A stretch of DNA of 64,000 nt from Oligoflexales bacterium (GTDB lineage Bacteria > Bdellovibrionota_B > Oligoflexia > Oligoflexales > RGVZ01): the NCBI GenBank assembly GCA_947445775.1, contig CANFEB010000002.1, forward strand, positions 62,001 to 126,000, given 5' to 3'. Shown one piece after another: positions 8,142 through 15,667 of this stretch; position 1 is the first letter of the stretch; each line of letters opens with the position of its first letter. Made by a program: the position numbers and the translations under genes. The notes beneath the pieces are model-generated. The model made no database searches, was not told where the DNA came from, and saw only the letters and a list, made by a program, of their open reading frames with translations.

Positions 8142-9875
8142 TTAGTTTAAAAAAGTTCCAGGCTGATCATGCAACTTCCGGTAAAGCCCGTTGGCCGATA
8201 TGAGGTCTGCGTGGCTGCCGCGTTCTAGAACCCTGCCGCCTTTGATGACCAGAATTTGCCCGCAGCGTGCCACCGTCGAAAGTCTATGAGCAATGACAAT
8301 GACGGTGCGCTCGTGGAGCATGGATTCAATGGCTTCTTGCACGCGTCGTTCCGAGTCAGGGTCCACACTGGACGTCGCCTCGTCCAAAATAATCAGCGTC
8401 GGATTTGTGGCCAACGCCCGCGCAAAGACAATCAGCTGACGTTGCCCATGGGAAAGATTGGCCCCTTGTTCCCGGACATGGAAGTCAAGGCCGCCCGGTA
8501 GCTTTGTGATGAAATCGCTTGCGCAGACGGCCTCCAATGCCCGGTTGATGGCATGGTCGTCGACGCCATCGCGGCCCAGTGAAATATTGAAGCGCAGCGT
8601 GCCGTCAAACAAAACAATGTCTTGAGGCACAATGGCGACTTTCTGGCGCAAGGTGGTCGGACTGATTCCCGAAATTTCAACTCCGTCGATGGTGATGCTG
8701 CCGCGGTAGCCGTCATAAAGGCGCGCCAGCAGTTTGATGATTGTAGATTTCCCAGAGCCAGTTGGACCCACGAGGGCCAGGCTCTTTCCTGCCGGCAGGT
8801 CAAACGTCACGCCTTGCAAAACGTCGCGCTGACCATAGGCAAAAGTCACGTTGGAAAACGAGACATTACCCTCGCGCATTTCAAAGGTGGTGTCGCCGGG
8901 GATGATCTCCTTGGTGTCGAGCAGGCCAAATATGCGGTCAATCGACGTAAAAGCGCCCTGAAGCATTGCCATCTTGTTGCCAAGTTGTTTGAGGGGTTCA
9001 AACATCTGCTGCACATATTGAACGAAAGCAACCAGGACCCCTGCGGAAATAGTACCCGCCATCAGGGAATCCGGCGCCAAGTGACGGATCGCCAACCACA
9101 AGACCAAGCCAGTGGTCATCGCCGAAAAACCATCAAGAACGGCAAACATCGCAGCGTCCAATACGACGCTGCGCATTTGCGCATTACGATAGGTGTCGTT
9201 GAGCCTTTCATAACGATTGGCTGCATCCGGCGCAGCATTGAGGGTCTTGATTGTAGCGGCGCCATACAGACATTCCTGGGTATAAGCGTTCAAGGCGGCG
9301 AGGTGCTTGCGGGCTGACAGCATCGAATCGCGAAGTCCCTTGGAAAATCCCCGGACGACAAGGATCAAAACCGGGATCATGACAAATGCCGTCAGGGCCA
9401 GACGCCAGTCCAAAAGCAGCATCCCGATCATGCACCCGGCGAGAACCGCAAGGTCAACTATCGAAGTCAAAACGCCTTGATTAAGGGATTCACTAAGGTT
9501 GTCAAATTCACTGGTGGCTCGCGTGACGAGCGCCCCGGACAGGGACCGGTCGTGGAAGCTGGCCGACAAACCCAGCACATGGCGAATCACGGATTCTCGC
9601 ATCGACCGGATCATCTGGTGGGTTGCCCAAGCGGCGGTAACGGTCTGGCCCGTGCGACAGGCGTATTCAAAAAAGATCGCCCCCAGATAAGTGATCCCCA
9701 TCCAGGCCAAATAGTGCAGATCCCCGGGGATGATGCCGTGGTCAATCGTCGCACGAAGGATCAAAGGTAAAGCGGCCTGCATTCCAGAGATGGCCGGCAC
9801 CAGACAGACGGCAACCAGCACTAGATGGCGATATTGCCGCAACCACGGCCACAATTTTCCAAGATCTCTGATCAT
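8142..9875 (-). CDS. ABC exporter half, canonical ATPase site (MdlB-like)
   Basis: 577 residues: six membrane segments in about 15-310, then an ATPase domain. Walker A GPTGSGKS is near residue 370, signature LSHGQRQ near 475, and Walker B LIILDEATSSVD near 497 with catalytic Glu present; switch His is in IVIAHRLST. The LSHGQ signature resembles the MdlB-type half of heterodimeric exporters. Its partner is probably the half-transporter at 11833-13596, whose catalytic Glu is Asp. The start overlaps the phosphatase stop by ATGA, so translation is coupled. It is the last gene of a five-gene unit. The substrate is unknown; lipids, peptides and drugs are all exported by relatives. Confidence 0.88.
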   Translation of the reverse strand: MIRDLGKLWPWLRQYRHLVLVAVCLVPAISGMQAALPLILRATIDHGIIPGDLHYLAWMGITYLGAIFFEYACRTGQTVTAAWATHQMIRSMRESVIRHVLGLSASFHDRSLSGALVTRATSEFDNLSESLNQGVLTSIVDLAVLAGCMIGMLLLDWRLALTAFVMIPVLILVVRGFSKGLRDSMLSARKHLAALNAYTQECLYGAATIKTLNAAPDAANRYERLNDTYRNAQMRSVVLDAAMFAVLDGFSAMTTGLVLWLAIRHLAPDSLMAGTISAGVLVAFVQYVQQMFEPLKQLGNKMAMLQGAFTSIDRIFGLLDTKEIIPGDTTFEMREGNVSFSNVTFAYGQRDVLQGVTFDLPAGKSLALVGPTGSGKSTIIKLLARLYDGYRGSITIDGVEISGISPTTLRQKVAIVPQDIVLFDGTLRFNISLGRDGVDDHAINRALEAVCASDFITKLPGGLDFHVREQGANLSHGQRQLIVFARALATNPTLIILDEATSSVDPDSERRVQEAIESMLHERTVIVIAHRLSTVARCGQILVIKGGRVLERGSHADLISANGLYRKLHDQPGTFLN

Positions 9876-11836
9876 GTTTGACCTGCCGCTGCAATGACAA
9901 CCAGGCAGACATCATCGCTGACTTTGCCGCCTGAGGTATGCCGGCGAAAATCAGAAATAATCTCGTCTTTGATGGCTGTGCTGGAAAAACTGCTTTTCAA
10001 GGCTGCCAGACACCGGACAAACGTGCGGTGAAAAGTTTTGCCCCCTTTTGATCGTCCATCGACAAGCCCATCGGTAAAAACCACCAGGCGCGCAGCGGCA
10101 GGAAATGCGTAGGTGGCATCGCCCCGAGCCTCCGCCTTGTTTTGAGGATCATTCTTCAGGTTATGGTTCAGGCTCTGATTCAGGCTGTTATTCAGGCTGT
10201 GATTCATTCCAAGTATAGGCTGCAACCCGCCCGTCAAAGCACGGGCCTTCATCAGTCCCGACTTGGAGGGCTCAAGGATTACCGGAAACTGGTGGCCAGC
10301 ATTTGCGATCGTCACCGTTTGCTGTTGGTAGTCAACCTTCAGGACGGCGCACGTCATTTGTAAATTGCTGTCGGCTGCGACCTTGTCCACGACACACTGG
10401 ATGAGTTCCAAAATCTGGGAAGGCCGGTTCACGGCAATATTATCGTGGGATCCCATGAGGCTGCGTAAACTTTCCAGAGCTCCGCTAACGGCCGCTGTGA
10501 TCATGCTCTGGGCAATTCCGTGCCCAGTGACGTCACCCATCATGACATAGATGGCCCGTTGTGCGGGGGCCTCAATCACATTGGTCCAATCGCCGCCAAC
10601 CCGCAAAACCGGCTCATAGTGAAAAGCTAGGTCCGATTGGAGTCCTCCGGGATTTTTACCGGAACCCCCGAGGTTCGCCCGCTGAACGCTTTCAGCAACT
10701 TTCATTTCAGCGGTCATTAGGGCGGACTCGTGGATGAACGACTGACGAACCATGGCAACTGTCGCCAAGGATGCGATTGATTTTAGTAATCCATGGGCAT
10801 GAGATTCCAGCGGCGCGTCGAAACCGAGGATAAATTCCCCAATCAGACGCTGGCGAGATTTCAAAGAAAATCGGTAGACGCGGTTTTCCGGTATGGCACT
10901 GAAGGCCCGGTCAATCTCTGTTTGAAGAGCGACGGGGGGCTGGTCAAGAAATTTGGCGATCAGCTGCCCGTCCAGAAACAGGCGCGGGGACGGGGCGTCA
11001 TAATGTGGGTCCTGACTATCTTTGGCAGGGATGAATGCCGCGATGGAGGCCTTGCCCAAGCGCACTGTGCTGCGCAGAGCCTGATCGATCAGGCTATTTG
11101 AGTCGTGGCCGGAAAAGATGTCCATGATCGCACCGTTTAGGATTTCCATGCGCTGGCGATTGTCGGCCAACGCTGCCTCGCGAATCGAAAGGTCCCGTGC
11201 CATGGAATTGACACTGTTGTTGATGCGGTTAACTTCCTCTTGAGCAGCATTTGGAAGTTGCAGCCGGTAGTCGCCGCTGGCAATCACATCCAACCCCCTG
11301 ATCAAGCGGTCGAGGGGATCACGCAGGTAGCGTTTCATGAGTTTGCGAGTCCCGATATTGACGGCACTGATCGCCAGAGCGAGGGCCATGGCGAGGAATA
11401 TCAGTGTGTCTGTTTGCTTTTGCCGGATGGTGGCATCGGTGAACCACAGGGTGAGTTGGCCGATGACAGCCCCGTTGCGCTCGACCGGGCGGGTCAAGGT
11501 GAGTCGGGGAGTTTCGCGGGACTTCCACCTTTCCAGCATGGTTTGACCGTGCTCATCAACTAATTTTGCGGCGGTGATGATGTCGGATTGCAGGAAAATC
11601 CCGACGATACGTTGGATTTCCCGGTCGTCAATGTTCCAAACAGGGCTAGTGAGCACTTCTGTGGCGCTCACCAAAAGTTCACCTGCCTTGGTATCAAGAT
11701 TTTCCAGTTCACGGTTATAGGAGAAAAAGAAATTCACTGTGCCCAAAAGTAAAAAAGCCAGGGTCACCAGAACCGACAAGCCGAAGCCAAGGTCGCCGGC
11801 GACGGTGCGCTTGGCGTGAGTGAATCTGGGGATCAT
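9872..11836 (-). CDS. HAMP-containing sensor phosphatase, SpoIIE/PP2C type
   Basis: 654 residues. A membrane segment near 13-35, a periplasmic domain of about 105 residues, a second membrane segment near 143-165, HAMP (RYLRDPLDRLIRGLDVIASGDY), a GAF-like middle, and a SpoIIE domain. Metal-binding acidic residues are in place: GDVTGHG near 430, FTDGLVDG near 587 and VSDDV near 633. Such proteins dephosphorylate anti-sigma-factor antagonists or other phosphoproteins in response to an external signal. ATG 11836 is chosen over an upstream start because it makes the ATGA overlap with the exporter gene before it. A 12-bp repeat encodes an Asn/Ser/Leu insert inside the catalytic domain. No anti-sigma or STAS gene is in the unit. 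Confidence 0.85.
   Translation of the reverse strand: MIPRFTHAKRTVAGDLGFGLSVLVTLAFLLLGTVNFFFSYNRELENLDTKAGELLVSATEVLTSPVWNIDDREIQRIVGIFLQSDIITAAKLVDEHGQTMLERWKSRETPRLTLTRPVERNGAVIGQLTLWFTDATIRQKQTDTLIFLAMALALAISAVNIGTRKLMKRYLRDPLDRLIRGLDVIASGDYRLQLPNAAQEEVNRINNSVNSMARDLSIREAALADNRQRMEILNGAIMDIFSGHDSNSLIDQALRSTVRLGKASIAAFIPAKDSQDPHYDAPSPRLFLDGQLIAKFLDQPPVALQTEIDRAFSAIPENRVYRFSLKSRQRLIGEFILGFDAPLESHAHGLLKSIASLATVAMVRQSFIHESALMTAEMKVAESVQRANLGGSGKNPGGLQSDLAFHYEPVLRVGGDWTNVIEAPAQRAIYVMMGDVTGHGIAQSMITAAVSGALESLRSLMGSHDNIAVNRPSQILELIQCVVDKVAADSNLQMTCAVLKVDYQQQTVTIANAGHQFPVILEPSKSGLMKARALTGGLQPILGMNHSLNNSLNQSLNHNLKNDPQNKAEARGDATYAFPAAARLVVFTDGLVDGRSKGGKTFHRTFVRCLAALKSSFSSTAIKDEIISDFRRHTSGGKVSDDVCLVVIAAAGQT
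10151..10210 (-). repeat. 12-bp in-frame tandem repeat in the phosphatase gene
   Basis: Five imperfect copies of a 12-base unit (type ctgattcaggct on the + strand). They encode a NSLNQSLNHNL-like insert between the conserved blocks of the SpoIIE domain, where relatives have a short loop. Confidence 0.8.
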
Positions 11837-13596
11837 TTTTGGTCCCCAGTCAGGTGTCCGACCTCGTTCCAAGTTCCAGCCGCCACTATTTTTCCGTGAT
11901 CCAGAATCAGGATGTGCTCGCAGGATTTTAATACCGAAGGTCGGTGGCTGGCGACGATCATGGCGCAACCCCGGCGGAGCAAAGTCTCAACAAGTTTTAC
12001 TTCGGTTAGTTGATCGACCGCAGACAATACGTCATCGAGGATCAAGACTTCGAAATCCCGCAAAAACAGCCGGGCAAGGGCCAGCCTTTGTTTTTGTCCA
12101 CCAGAAAGCCTGATTCCCTTTTCGCCAATCTCAGTTTGGAATCCCTGAGGCAATTCAGTGATTTCATCGAAAATCATGGCATCGCTTGCGGCGCGTTCGA
12201 CATCCGCCTTGGAAACAGGCTTTGCCAATCCAAAACGCAGATTCTCTTCCACAGAAGCCGAAAACAGATGCACCGTTTGAGCCGCCATGCCGCAGGATCG
12301 GCGAACTTCTACCGGATCTAGTGTCAGGAGGTCGCGTCCATGCAGAAAAATACTGTTCGCGGGCGGGTCGTAGAGTCGGACAATAAGTTGCAAGAGGGTC
12401 GTCTTGCCGCTGCCGACTGGGCCGGCGATGCCAATGCGGCCTTTTGCCGATAAATCAAAAGAAATTTGTTGAAGGGCAAACCTGTCAGGATCGTCCTGGT
12501 AGCGGAAGTTAAGGCCGCGGACTGAAATAATTGGAGTGGCTGCGGTGGCTTTGGTGGCTGTGGTGGCTGTGGTGGCAGTGGCTGCAGACATGGGCTTTTT
12601 CACGGCCACCGGTGCCTCTGCACTTTGGGACTCCATTTCATTGAGCCTGACGACTGCGGTTTTTGCGCGTTCATACATGGCGATGATCATTCCGACTGCC
12701 GTCAGCGGAAAACTGAGAAAGCCGATATAAACATTGAAGGCCAATATATCGCCAACCGTAATGCGGTTGTGGATCGCTTCGTAGCCACCGTAGAAAATAA
12801 CGGTCATCTGGCCAATCGATGCTAGGCAGCTCATGAGCGGAAAAACCGCGTTGCGGATGAAAACCAAACGCATGTTGCTGTCGTAGACCGCTTGGTTTTC
12901 AATCTTCGTTCGGTTCAGGAAAGATTCCTCGGCACTGCTTTGTTGGACGACGTGAACGTTGACAAAGGCCTCGGTAACCCGGTTGGTCAGGCGCCCGATG
13001 GCTTCTTGATTTTGGCGCGAGTATTCCTGCATGCGGGGCATGGCATAACGGGTGATCACCAGCATCAGGGCAAGGGGCGCGATGCAAGCAATGGTTAAAC
13101 CAACGTGGATGGTCAGCATCCGGCTGATGATGAAGGCACACAGAAAAATCAGGTTAAGCACCTGCAGCAGACCAAAGGCAAAAAAGACGCGCAGTTGTCC
13201 GATGTCATTGGACAGGCGAGAGACCAAATCCCCCATGCCGAAATGCATGAGGGCCTTTTGCGGAAGCCTCAATAAATGACGGAATGCATCCGTGCGTGAG
13301 TTGGCTTCGATGGTGCGACCTGGCCAAAAAACCAGAATCCGCGACAGGGATCGGATGAAAATTTGGAGCAGACCAAGGGCCATGATCAAAAGGGCGATTT
13401 TGGAAAGAGCCATTGGGTCAGGATTTGCTGACTGTTGGGCCGTCATCTGGTTCACGGCATTGACAACATCTTTGGCCAACAGCGGGATTTCAAGGGTGAT
13501 CAAATTCGTCGCGGCAAGGGCAATAAAACCAGCGGCGTACCATGGCCAAAGGGGCGCGGCATAGCGGCGAGCGAATCCTCCAAGTGCGTTATTCAT
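11833..13596 (-). CDS. ABC exporter half, degenerate ATPase site (MdlA-like)
   Basis: 587 residues: an exporter membrane domain (about 15-310), then an Ala/Thr-rich linker made by a 9-bp repeat, then the ATPase domain. Walker A GPVGSGKT is near 392, signature LSGGQKQR near 496, and Walker B LILDDVLSAVD near 516, so the catalytic Glu is Asp. This Glu-to-Asp change with an intact signature is the hallmark of MdlA/TM287-type halves that pair with a canonical half, here most likely the gene at 8142-9875. ATG 13596 is preferred to an upstream in-frame start because it forms ATGA with the preceding ATPase gene. The phosphatase gene lies between the two halves, which is unusual. Confidence 0.85.
   Translation of the reverse strand: MNNALGGFARRYAAPLWPWYAAGFIALAATNLITLEIPLLAKDVVNAVNQMTAQQSANPDPMALSKIALLIMALGLLQIFIRSLSRILVFWPGRTIEANSRTDAFRHLLRLPQKALMHFGMGDLVSRLSNDIGQLRVFFAFGLLQVLNLIFLCAFIISRMLTIHVGLTIACIAPLALMLVITRYAMPRMQEYSRQNQEAIGRLTNRVTEAFVNVHVVQQSSAEESFLNRTKIENQAVYDSNMRLVFIRNAVFPLMSCLASIGQMTVIFYGGYEAIHNRITVGDILAFNVYIGFLSFPLTAVGMIIAMYERAKTAVVRLNEMESQSAEAPVAVKKPMSAATATTATTATKATAATPIISVRGLNFRYQDDPDRFALQQISFDLSAKGRIGIAGPVGSGKTTLLQLIVRLYDPPANSIFLHGRDLLTLDPVEVRRSCGMAAQTVHLFSASVEENLRFGLAKPVSKADVERAASDAMIFDEITELPQGFQTEIGEKGIRLSGGQKQRLALARLFLRDFEVLILDDVLSAVDQLTEVKLVETLLRRGCAMIVASHRPSVLKSCEHILILDHGKIVAAGTWNEVGHLTGDQK
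12531..12584 (-). repeat. 9-bp in-frame tandem repeat in exporter linker
   Basis: Six imperfect copies of a 9-base unit (ctgtggtgg on the + strand) encode the ATTATTAT stretch that joins the membrane and ATPase domains. Confidence 0.8.
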
Positions 13597-14378
13597 TTCG
13601 TGACCTGGCGGGCATTGCGGGCATTGCGGGAATGAAGGAATGCCGACGGTGGCGGGGCAACCTCGGCAAATTTTCGTTCGAGAATCTCTTCGCGAGTGGT
13701 TTTTGACTCCGGCCACGAAATCGTTGATCCGTGGCCGTTGTGCAGAAAGAAACTTGAGTTGGCGAGTTCCGCTGCGAACGACGCGATATGAGTTGCGAAA
13801 ATGGTGATGCCCCCGGCGGCTTTCCGGCGCTGGATTTCCTGGCGCAGTGCCGCGATATGGCCCAGATCTAGAGCCTCAAATGGCTCATCCAGAATCAAGA
13901 TGTCTGGGTCGTGAAGGGTCGCGATGGCAAGGCCGACTCGCTTGCGCATTCCCATGGACAGCATGCCGATGGGGCGCTGGGCAAAATCCTGACAATCCCA
14001 GTAGGCCAGCGCATTGCCTGCGGCGTTGTGGGCGCGTTCCTCGGGGGCCAGCATTCCAGCGCTGTACCGGCATAGCTCGTCCGGGGTGGCCCACATTGGC
14101 AAAAGATTGTGTTGCGGCAGATAGCCGCATGATTTCCGTGATTCAGCTATTGGATGTCCGGACAGAGTCACTGTGCCCGAGGATGCGGCCATGTTGCCCG
14201 TCATGATTTGGAATAAAGTGCTTTTGCCGCTGCCGTTCGGACCTGAAACGGCAAGGCATGTGCCGCCTTCTAAATCCAGATCTATGGGGCCAAGCTTGAA
14301 TGCCGAGGCGCCGTCTGGGAATGTTTTTTCCAGAGCAGTGGTGTTCAGATGCAATTTAAAATTATTTTCCTGCATCAT
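13593..14378 (-). CDS. ABC transporter ATP-binding protein
   Basis: 261 residues, a single ATPase domain. Walker A GPNGSGKS near residue 45, Q-loop GYLPQHN, signature LSMGMRKRVGLA near 136, Walker B DILILDEPFEALD near 158 and switch His in FATHIA. The MGMRKR signature is typical of CcmA/ABC-2-like ATPases that work with a separate permease. The permease is presumably the product of the gene just upstream, joined by an ATGA overlap. The C-terminus carries a short NARNARQ repeat from a 9-bp unit (about 13609-13632) that overlaps the start region of the exporter gene. Substrate unknown. Confidence 0.85.
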   Translation of the reverse strand: MMQENNFKLHLNTTALEKTFPDGASAFKLGPIDLDLEGGTCLAVSGPNGSGKSTLFQIMTGNMAASSGTVTLSGHPIAESRKSCGYLPQHNLLPMWATPDELCRYSAGMLAPEERAHNAAGNALAYWDCQDFAQRPIGMLSMGMRKRVGLAIATLHDPDILILDEPFEALDLGHIAALRQEIQRRKAAGGITIFATHIASFAAELANSSFFLHNGHGSTISWPESKTTREEILERKFAEVAPPPSAFLHSRNARNARQVTK

Positions 14379-15667
14379 TTAATCTCCATCCGAAGCCGCT
14401 GATCCTGATGCTGGGCAAGAAAGATTATCACCACAGGCCAGAGCACAAAAGCAGCCTTTGTCGCAATGATAGCGGTGGCCAGAAATAAACTCGCCATCAG
14501 GGTGGTCAACATTTGAATGACCGGGCGGCGAACATCCACTTGCCACAACAAAAATGGAGTCAGTGAGGGTGCCATTGCAGCTGAAGCCGCCGCCGTAGCC
14601 ATGACCTCGCCTGGGGCGACGGCGAGGCCGGTGGTGGTGATGGCTGCGCAAACGCTGGCAACGATCAGGCCTGTGCCAGCATGGCTTCGGGCCACCTGGT
14701 GTGGCGTGATTCCGAGCGCATACTCAAAATGAATGGAATCGGCTTCAGCGGCGGCCTGGAAGATCAAGGGCAAGGCTGCAAACCAACCGGCAAACCAGGC
14801 GAAAATAGCGACGAAGGCCGAGGGTATGCCCGCAGCCGCCGCGACCGACATCCCGCCGGTCGCCAACAACGATGCGCCCCAAAAGGCCCAACTTGATGGG
14901 GCTCGGAGCATCAGCCCGGTGCGCCAGCGGATCATGGTGAGCAGCGGGGAACGCCAGTGCTTGGAAACAAGGCTGAATCTGCGGGGCGAGATGGCCAATT
15001 TGGTTGGTCTGCCTGAAATCGAAGGGCTGCGTTGGTCCTTTGGTGTTTGGGTGCGCAATGAAGCCAAGGCCGTTGCCAGGCATATGCCCAGCGTTGCCGC
15101 GATGATCGATGTTTCATGCCATGATACAAGCCACGAAACAATCCACGATACAATCCACGATACAAGCCGCGATAAAAGGCCTTCAAATGAGGGTGCAGCC
15201 ACGGCGATGGGACGTTGTTGCAAAACCCCGCCCCCGGCGAGGATGATGAGTGTCCCTGTGACCAAGCCGATGATTGTGGCCAGAATTGCTAGGGAAAATC
15301 CCTCGGTGATTCTGGCCCGTTTGGGATCAAGGCCTGACAGGATCGAAAAGTTAAGCCAGCCCACGGTTACGTCCCTTTGGGCGGCCCGGCGCACCATCAG
15401 GGAGCCAGTCAGGGCGATAATCAGGCAAACAACTGTGACGGCTCCCAGGGCAGCGCGGGGAACAATAGCGGCAATGTCTGCAGAGAAAACATCCCGAAAC
15501 ACGTGGATAAACAGGCTTCCAAAGACCCCTGCTGCCACCAAGCTGACGGCGGCCTCGGGAAGGCTGTGGCTGACCAGGCGCCGCCATGACGAGGCGATCC
15601 CCCGCCATGGTAGGGCCGCGCCGCGGAACATCCTGGACGGATTGCTTTTTGAGGGTAGTCGTGCCAT
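14375..15667 (-). CDS. Predicted ABC permease, polytopic membrane protein
   Basis: 430 residues from ATG 15667. Eight or more hydrophobic helices, for example near AAVSLVAAGVFGSLFIHVF, VCLIIALTGSLM, IGLVTGTLIILAGGG and FWGASLLATGGMSVAAAAG. A GITPHQVARSH segment between helices resembles a coupling helix. No family could be named with confidence; the role as permease rests on its ATGA-coupled ATPase neighbour. A 12-bp tandem repeat builds an (I/L)VSW-repeat helix. The frame is open to ATG 15718, but that longer start would overlap the divergent folE2 gene. Only about 30 bases separate the two divergent starts. Confidence 0.65.
   Translation of the reverse strand: MARLPSKSNPSRMFRGAALPWRGIASSWRRLVSHSLPEAAVSLVAAGVFGSLFIHVFRDVFSADIAAIVPRAALGAVTVVCLIIALTGSLMVRRAAQRDVTVGWLNFSILSGLDPKRARITEGFSLAILATIIGLVTGTLIILAGGGVLQQRPIAVAAPSFEGLLSRLVSWIVSWIVSWLVSWHETSIIAATLGICLATALASLRTQTPKDQRSPSISGRPTKLAISPRRFSLVSKHWRSPLLTMIRWRTGLMLRAPSSWAFWGASLLATGGMSVAAAAGIPSAFVAIFAWFAGWFAALPLIFQAAAEADSIHFEYALGITPHQVARSHAGTGLIVASVCAAITTTGLAVAPGEVMATAAASAAMAPSLTPFLLWQVDVRRPVIQMLTTLMASLFLATAIIATKAAFVLWPVVIIFLAQHQDQRLRMEIK
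15121..15180 (-). repeat. 12-bp in-frame tandem repeat building a membrane helix
   Basis: Five copies of a 12-base unit (acgatacaatcc type on the + strand). On the coding strand they give the IVSWIVSWLVSW-type segment, an almost perfect four-residue repeat in a hydrophobic helix of the permease. Confidence 0.85.

Follow-up and report, generated by a model that had tools for sequence, protein, structure and literature searches.

Heterodimeric ABC exporters in which one of the ATP sites is degenerate represent a described class of bacterial transporters (PMC5216877, PMC12038006). TM287/288, BmrCD/YheIH, TmrAB and EfrCD are composed of two halves, one of which carries Asp instead of Glu in its Walker B motif, while the other features a variant signature. 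The two halves described here, designated expA and expB, share these properties; in contrast to exporters of the TM287/288 type, they are parted by a signaling gene in some lineages and follow a second permease-ATPase pair. SpoIIE-type sensor phosphatases are commonly regarded as components of partner switches involving STAS proteins. SiaA, RsbU and RsbP, like the phosphatase P0006 encoded between expA and expB, combine a sensor region, a helical linker and a SpoIIE/PP2C domain, but the P0006 gene is not adjoined by a gene for a STAS or SiaC partner, and its operon encodes transporters instead. Co-encoding of an ABC exporter with a Ser/Thr phosphorylation enzyme is known from Rv1747-PknF of Mycobacterium tuberculosis (PMC3908365), although in that case the enzyme is a kinase and not a phosphatase, and Rv1747 possesses FHA domains and is no split heterodimer of the expA/expB type. 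In BceAB-BceRS, a membrane signaling protein is likewise encoded together with an ABC transporter; that module comprises a histidine kinase, a response regulator and a permease with a large extracytoplasmic loop, none of which is present in the operon analyzed here, where the permease has no Pfam match and the signaling protein is a PP2C phosphatase. Each part of this locus is of a known kind, and their combination, for which no description was found in the open-access literature searched, appears to be new to that literature.

The window, i.e., the whole analyzed stretch of 64,000 nucleotides, is placed in the Oligoflexales by its relatives, the nearest public records being Oligoflexales and Pseudobacteriovorax metagenome assemblies; as read from the sample names, the carrier group represents freshwater bacteria. 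Five genes on the minus strand, joined by four ATGA overlaps, follow one another in the order permease, ATPase, exporter half, phosphatase, exporter half, exactly as described in the first-pass annotation. The first of them encodes the permease P0005 (14375..15667; 430 aa), followed by the genes for the ABC ATPase P0004 (13593..14378; 261 aa), the exporter half P0003 (expA; 11833..13596; 587 aa), the membrane-bound sensor phosphatase P0006 (9872..11836; 654 aa) and the exporter half P0001 (expB; 8142..9875; 577 aa). A FolE2 gene is located upstream in divergent orientation, and genes encoding a DUF1993 protein and a metallo-beta-lactamase protein are located downstream on the opposite strand. 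Promoter- and terminator-like sites in the window did not exceed chance level, and screening with defense-system models yielded generic ATPase matches only.

Both P0003 and P0001 contain the Pfam domains ABC_membrane and ABC_tran and hence represent two half-transporters encoded together. Replacement of the catalytic Glu is restricted to one half: the degenerate Walker B motif of expA (ILDDVLSAVD) carries Asp (D522) at this position and is accompanied by an intact LSGGQ signature, while expB features the Walker B motif ILDEATSSVD with the catalytic E499 and the variant signature LSHGQ. This division, with Glu lost from one half and the signature altered in its partner, is classically described for heterodimeric exporters. 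Across the aligned loci, expA shows the LDD-type Walker B motif LDDVLSAxD together with LSGGQ; expB, where the region is present, shows the LDE-type motif LDEATSSxD and in most loci the signature LS[H/Q]GQ, the overall range being LS[H/Q/Y]GQ or IS[V/Q]GQ. Since the Asp/Glu asymmetry is kept in every locus having the region, with or without the phosphatase, the asymmetric pair of a full-site and an Asp-for-Glu half noticed at first pass is a conserved feature. Judged by these motifs, expA and expB are predicted to pair as a type IV ABC exporter of the heterodimeric class in which one ATP site is degenerate. From the distribution of the motifs, the consensus site would be formed by the Walker motifs of expB and the signature of expA, and the degenerate site by the reverse combination. 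The more specific assignment to the MdlA/MdlB type had to be abandoned, as P0003 scored 254 bits against the NCBIfam model SmdA (cut-off 845) and P0001 scored 320 bits against SmdB (cut-off 746), both equivalog cut-offs thus being missed by a wide margin. Furthermore, P0001 reached 432 bits against the model TIGR02203 of the MsbA lipid A exporter (cut-off 602). Because both halves stay below the curated SmdA, SmdB and MsbA cut-offs, no substrate can be named. Among solved bacterial half-exporters, YheI is closest to expA and a TmrAB chain is closest to expB. The dN/dS values of the exporter halves were in the range of 0.038-0.105 in close pairs.

The permease P0005 is a predicted multi-helix protein that matched neither Pfam nor PHROGs and had no significant counterpart in the PDB. 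All Foldseek matches had E > 0.08, those to a mycobacterial efflux pump (8k1p) and to NosY (7o0y) being suggestive only, and the predicted multi-helix fold weakly resembles that of ABC-2 type permeases. The CcmA/GldA-like ATPase P0004 matched ABC_tran and is presumed to be the partner of the permease. Permease orthologues were found in 31 loci; this family (14375-15667 in the window) is kept order-wide together with its ATPase, yet is represented by no Pfam model.

P0006 had initially been described as a HAMP-SpoIIE sensor phosphatase with two helices. Its SpoIIE domain clearly exceeded the Pfam cut-off (E 7.9e-26, 91.6 bits, cut-off 25), and two long helices are present in the structural model; the HAMP assignment did not hold at the Pfam threshold (21.4 bits, cut-off 25), and CHASE5 also fell below its threshold (21.6 bits, cut-off 27). 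All metal ligands of the SpoIIE/PP2C domain are present, and 12 sequences show no variation at D416, D435, D589 and D642 or in the GDVTGHG motif. In the AlphaFold2 model, whose domain arrangement is uncertain (mean pLDDT 74.7, pTM 0.44), a helix, a mixed domain of ~90 residues, a second helix, a coiled coil, an alpha/beta domain termed GAF-like from the model and without Pfam match, a long helix and the PP2C domain follow one another. Based on this model, a layout is predicted that consists of a TM helix, a periplasmic CHASE5-like region, a TM helix, a HAMP-like coiled coil, the GAF-like domain, a linker helix (residues 345-388) and the SpoIIE/PP2C domain. The PP2C fold matched those of RssB (3f7a), SpoIIE (5ucg) and SiaA (6k4e). 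The phosphatase is under purifying selection, its dN/dS values in three close pairs (0.057, 0.114 and 0.134) being near those of the exporter halves and below that of the permease. In the phylogenetic tree, the operon phosphatases form one group (99/98 support) together with a sister-genus homologue and three paralogues from a second family. In a plasmid search, similarity to SpoIIE-type proteins was no more than partial, with identities of about 22-28%. The closest phosphatase homologue of the sister genus has no GAF-like region and is encoded at another locus, where its gene overlaps an SBP_bac_3 gene (L053:8141-10415; also L050, L051 and L052), which suggests a GAF-less sensor phosphatase linked to a periplasmic solute-binding protein.

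In 4/4 genomes of the window genus and 7/7 of the second family (f8), expA and expB flank the phosphatase gene. The complete five-gene order was found in all four genus genomes and in six of the seven f8 genomes, giving 10 complete loci; in the seventh (G035), the permease is not detectable and expB is cut off at the contig end. The arrangement is thus not private to the window genome, a possibility that the first-pass annotation had named as refuting, and its recurrence in 10 complete loci of two families is more than chance would produce. Compared to the window proteins by BLASTP, those of f8 showed identities of 33-36% (phosphatase), 47-51% (expA) and 56-58% (expB); over the loci with this placement, phosphatase identity was in the range of 33-39%. 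Profile searches of 58 genomes from the phylum yielded 12 long-form phosphatase members, and those of 383 genomes reaching well beyond it added none; they covered homologues of this phosphatase only, and SpoIIE families unrelated to it may be arranged in the same way in other phyla. Placement of the phosphatase gene inside the exporter operon is real, conserved and selectively maintained. In a genome of family f11 (G026), the genes for permease, ATPase and phosphatase follow one another with no expA between them, and the contig stops 72 bases past the phosphatase gene. Searches of G026 at E<=1e-80 for expA and 1e-90 for expB yielded no exporter half, and the partner of the phosphatase may therefore be the permease-ATPase pair. 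The operons of f8 and G026 (L042, L043, L045-L049) are divergent from an operon which we take, by eye, to encode a YejABE-like peptide transporter, the corresponding place in the window being that of folE2.

From the ATGA joints it had been suggested at first pass that phosphatase and exporter are made in a fixed ratio. The four-base stop/start overlaps of the phosphatase gene with expA (11833..11836, minus strand) and with expB (9872..9875, minus strand) are kept in 4/4 genus genomes and absent in f8, where gaps of 15-131 bases occur at these joints (lengths refer to starts of the longest ORF, except that the ATG overlap was taken for the window genome). Fixed-ratio synthesis by ATGA coupling is therefore not a conserved feature. 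ATGA overlaps as such are common in the window, joining 10 of 41 co-directional gene pairs. Hairpins are present in some of the f8 gaps between expA and the phosphatase gene, one of them (in G016) being followed by a T-run, but the fold scores are for the most part unremarkable; it is uncertain whether the genes of the second family are co-transcribed. Judged from the gene arrangement, exporter and phosphatase are likely co-regulated.

Exporter halves that are adjacent and accompanied by no phosphatase were found in 20 genomes of the order; 18 phosphatase-less loci were read, to which G030 and G042 add adjacent expA/expB matches. Families f1 (the sister genus), f2, f3, f6, f10 and f11 feature the order permease-ATPase-expA-expB with adjacent, mostly overlapping halves. 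The same permease-ATPase pair precedes the exporter halves in nearly all phosphatase-less loci read, the pair being located apart in G019. Family f7 possesses an expA-expB pair with a 626-base gap devoid of a long ORF, or a disrupted second half. At L118:1958-7903, expB is replaced by a 1981-aa ORF encoding an ABC membrane domain and, behind it, a long region devoid of Pfam matches; this ORF may result from misassembly or gene decay. Flanking genes for an acyl-CoA-synthetase-like protein (presumably acetoacetyl-CoA synthetase, as identified by eye), an M78-like and a PilZ-like protein are common to the window genus, the sister genus and f6, indicating that these operons occupy the same locus. 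The 20 genomes with adjacent halves imply that the phosphatase gene was inserted into, or lost from, a pre-existing exporter operon, and its absence from the operon in most families implies that the pump can do without the phosphatase. The transporter-gene trees have an unresolved backbone, and the AU test rejected neither the genus plus the second family (p 0.27) nor the genus plus the sister genus (p 0.31) as a clade, so that a single gain followed by losses, several gains and transfer are indistinguishable. The patchy distribution and the retention of the exporter without the phosphatase in other genomes, as well as the gaps instead of overlaps in the second family and the location of the closest sister-genus homologue at another locus, would be consistent with hitch-hiking, i.e., a gene that landed by chance, is merely co-expressed, serves an unrelated pathway and keeps its place since relocation is rare. 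This explanation is unlikely, however, given that two families have kept the place although identity is down to about 35% and that a third family carries the phosphatase in the same operon.

Regarding candidate targets, five SpoIIE-type proteins and, scoring over cut-off, four Hanks-type kinases are encoded in the host genome. This genome, which is about 90% complete and whose divergent STAS proteins may escape Pfam, gave no match to STAS (PF01740) at E<=0.01 or to STAS_2 (PF13466) at E<=0.001, and nothing exceeded the cut-off for HATPase_c_2. In most other carriers, too, no small STAS protein exceeded the cut-off; G029 showed one weak match in a 161-aa frame. Both the STAS substrate and the HATPase_c_2 anti-sigma kinase of an RsbU/V/W system thus escaped detection in the host genome, and a classical partner switch is not supported. 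Neither are SiaC and SiaB genes adjacent as in SiaABCD, the neighbors being genes for transporters, FolE2, a metallo-beta-lactamase and DUF1993; in the genome-wide search for SiaC, the controls were silent. The PP2C domain, being of the SpoIIE/RsbU/SiaA kind, would fit a partner switch whose STAS anti-anti-sigma or SiaC-like substrate was missed by the searches and for which the operon is target or companion, but in view of the STAS and HATPase_c_2 results for host and other carriers this is improbable.

The phosphatase could also act on the transporter itself, removing a phosphate placed by a Hanks-type kinase on a subunit of the exporter or of the permease-ATPase pair and thereby gating export. 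Its place between the halves in two families and the presence of Ser/Thr kinases beside undetected STAS partners would agree with such a function, for which the two-gene operon of the kinase PknF and the ABC exporter Rv1747 represents a precedent (PMC3908365). However, no Ser/Thr column separates exporters with phosphatase from those without, and the inter-domain linker of expA is variable, so that direct control of the pump, possible as it may be, is unsupported by the sequences. Since, in addition, the exporter pair occurs without phosphatase in 20 genomes and the operon contains no kinase gene, direct action on the transporter is considered very unlikely. The signal-controlled export proposed in the first-pass annotation likewise stays conjectural, considering the lack of an exporter Ser/Thr tracking the phosphatase, the presence of the phosphatase without exporter halves in G026 and the 20 genomes possessing the exporter alone.

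Conversely, the exporter could serve as sensor, the phosphatase reading transport activity or transporter conformation as in Bce modules, whose architecture provides a known precedent (PMC10314905). An integral membrane signaling protein is indeed co-located with two ABC transporters, and the SBP_bac_3 gene overlapping the GAF-less homologue of the sister genus represents another transporter-type partner. Nevertheless, this reading is quite unlikely, as P0006, unlike the intramembrane-sensing BceS, has a separate periplasmic domain comprising about 90 residues, and the operon encodes no recognizable BceB-like permease or histidine kinase. It is also decidedly improbable that P0006 is a sensor phosphatase which works independently of STAS and is coupled directly to the heterodimeric exporter, either by sensing flux or by dephosphorylating the exporter and thereby switching it; such a protein would be to phosphatases what the Bce module of transporter and kinase is to kinases.

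Based on gene neighborhood, from which its function is deduced, the sensor phosphatase was probably recruited into an old exporter operon, is co-expressed with it and acts on a Ser/Thr phosphoprotein encoded elsewhere. The old Oligoflexales operon comprises an ABC-2-like permease and its ATPase as well as the predicted heterodimeric exporter with one degenerate site, and some lineages carry the membrane-anchored phosphatase between the two exporter-half genes. The small periplasmic domain may sense an envelope cue related to the operon's export. The signal would run from the HAMP-like coiled coil via the GAF-like domain to the linker helix, whereupon the PP2C domain would dimerize and switch on, by analogy with RsbU-type phosphatases, which are activated when linkers forming a coiled coil dimerize the catalytic domains (PMC12143880). 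The active phosphatase would then dephosphorylate its target, a Ser/Thr phosphoprotein encoded outside the operon. Co-transcription would ensure that pump and sensor appear together, and neither fixed stoichiometry nor direct binding to the pump would be needed.

A sensor phosphatase residing in an exporter operon, in a genome without detectable STAS, represents a tractable case for finding another substrate class of these enzymes. Moreover, relatives with and without the phosphatase provide a natural comparison for asking whether transport and Ser/Thr signaling are linked. The locus suggests that a pump and a signaling pathway are wired together in these bacteria.
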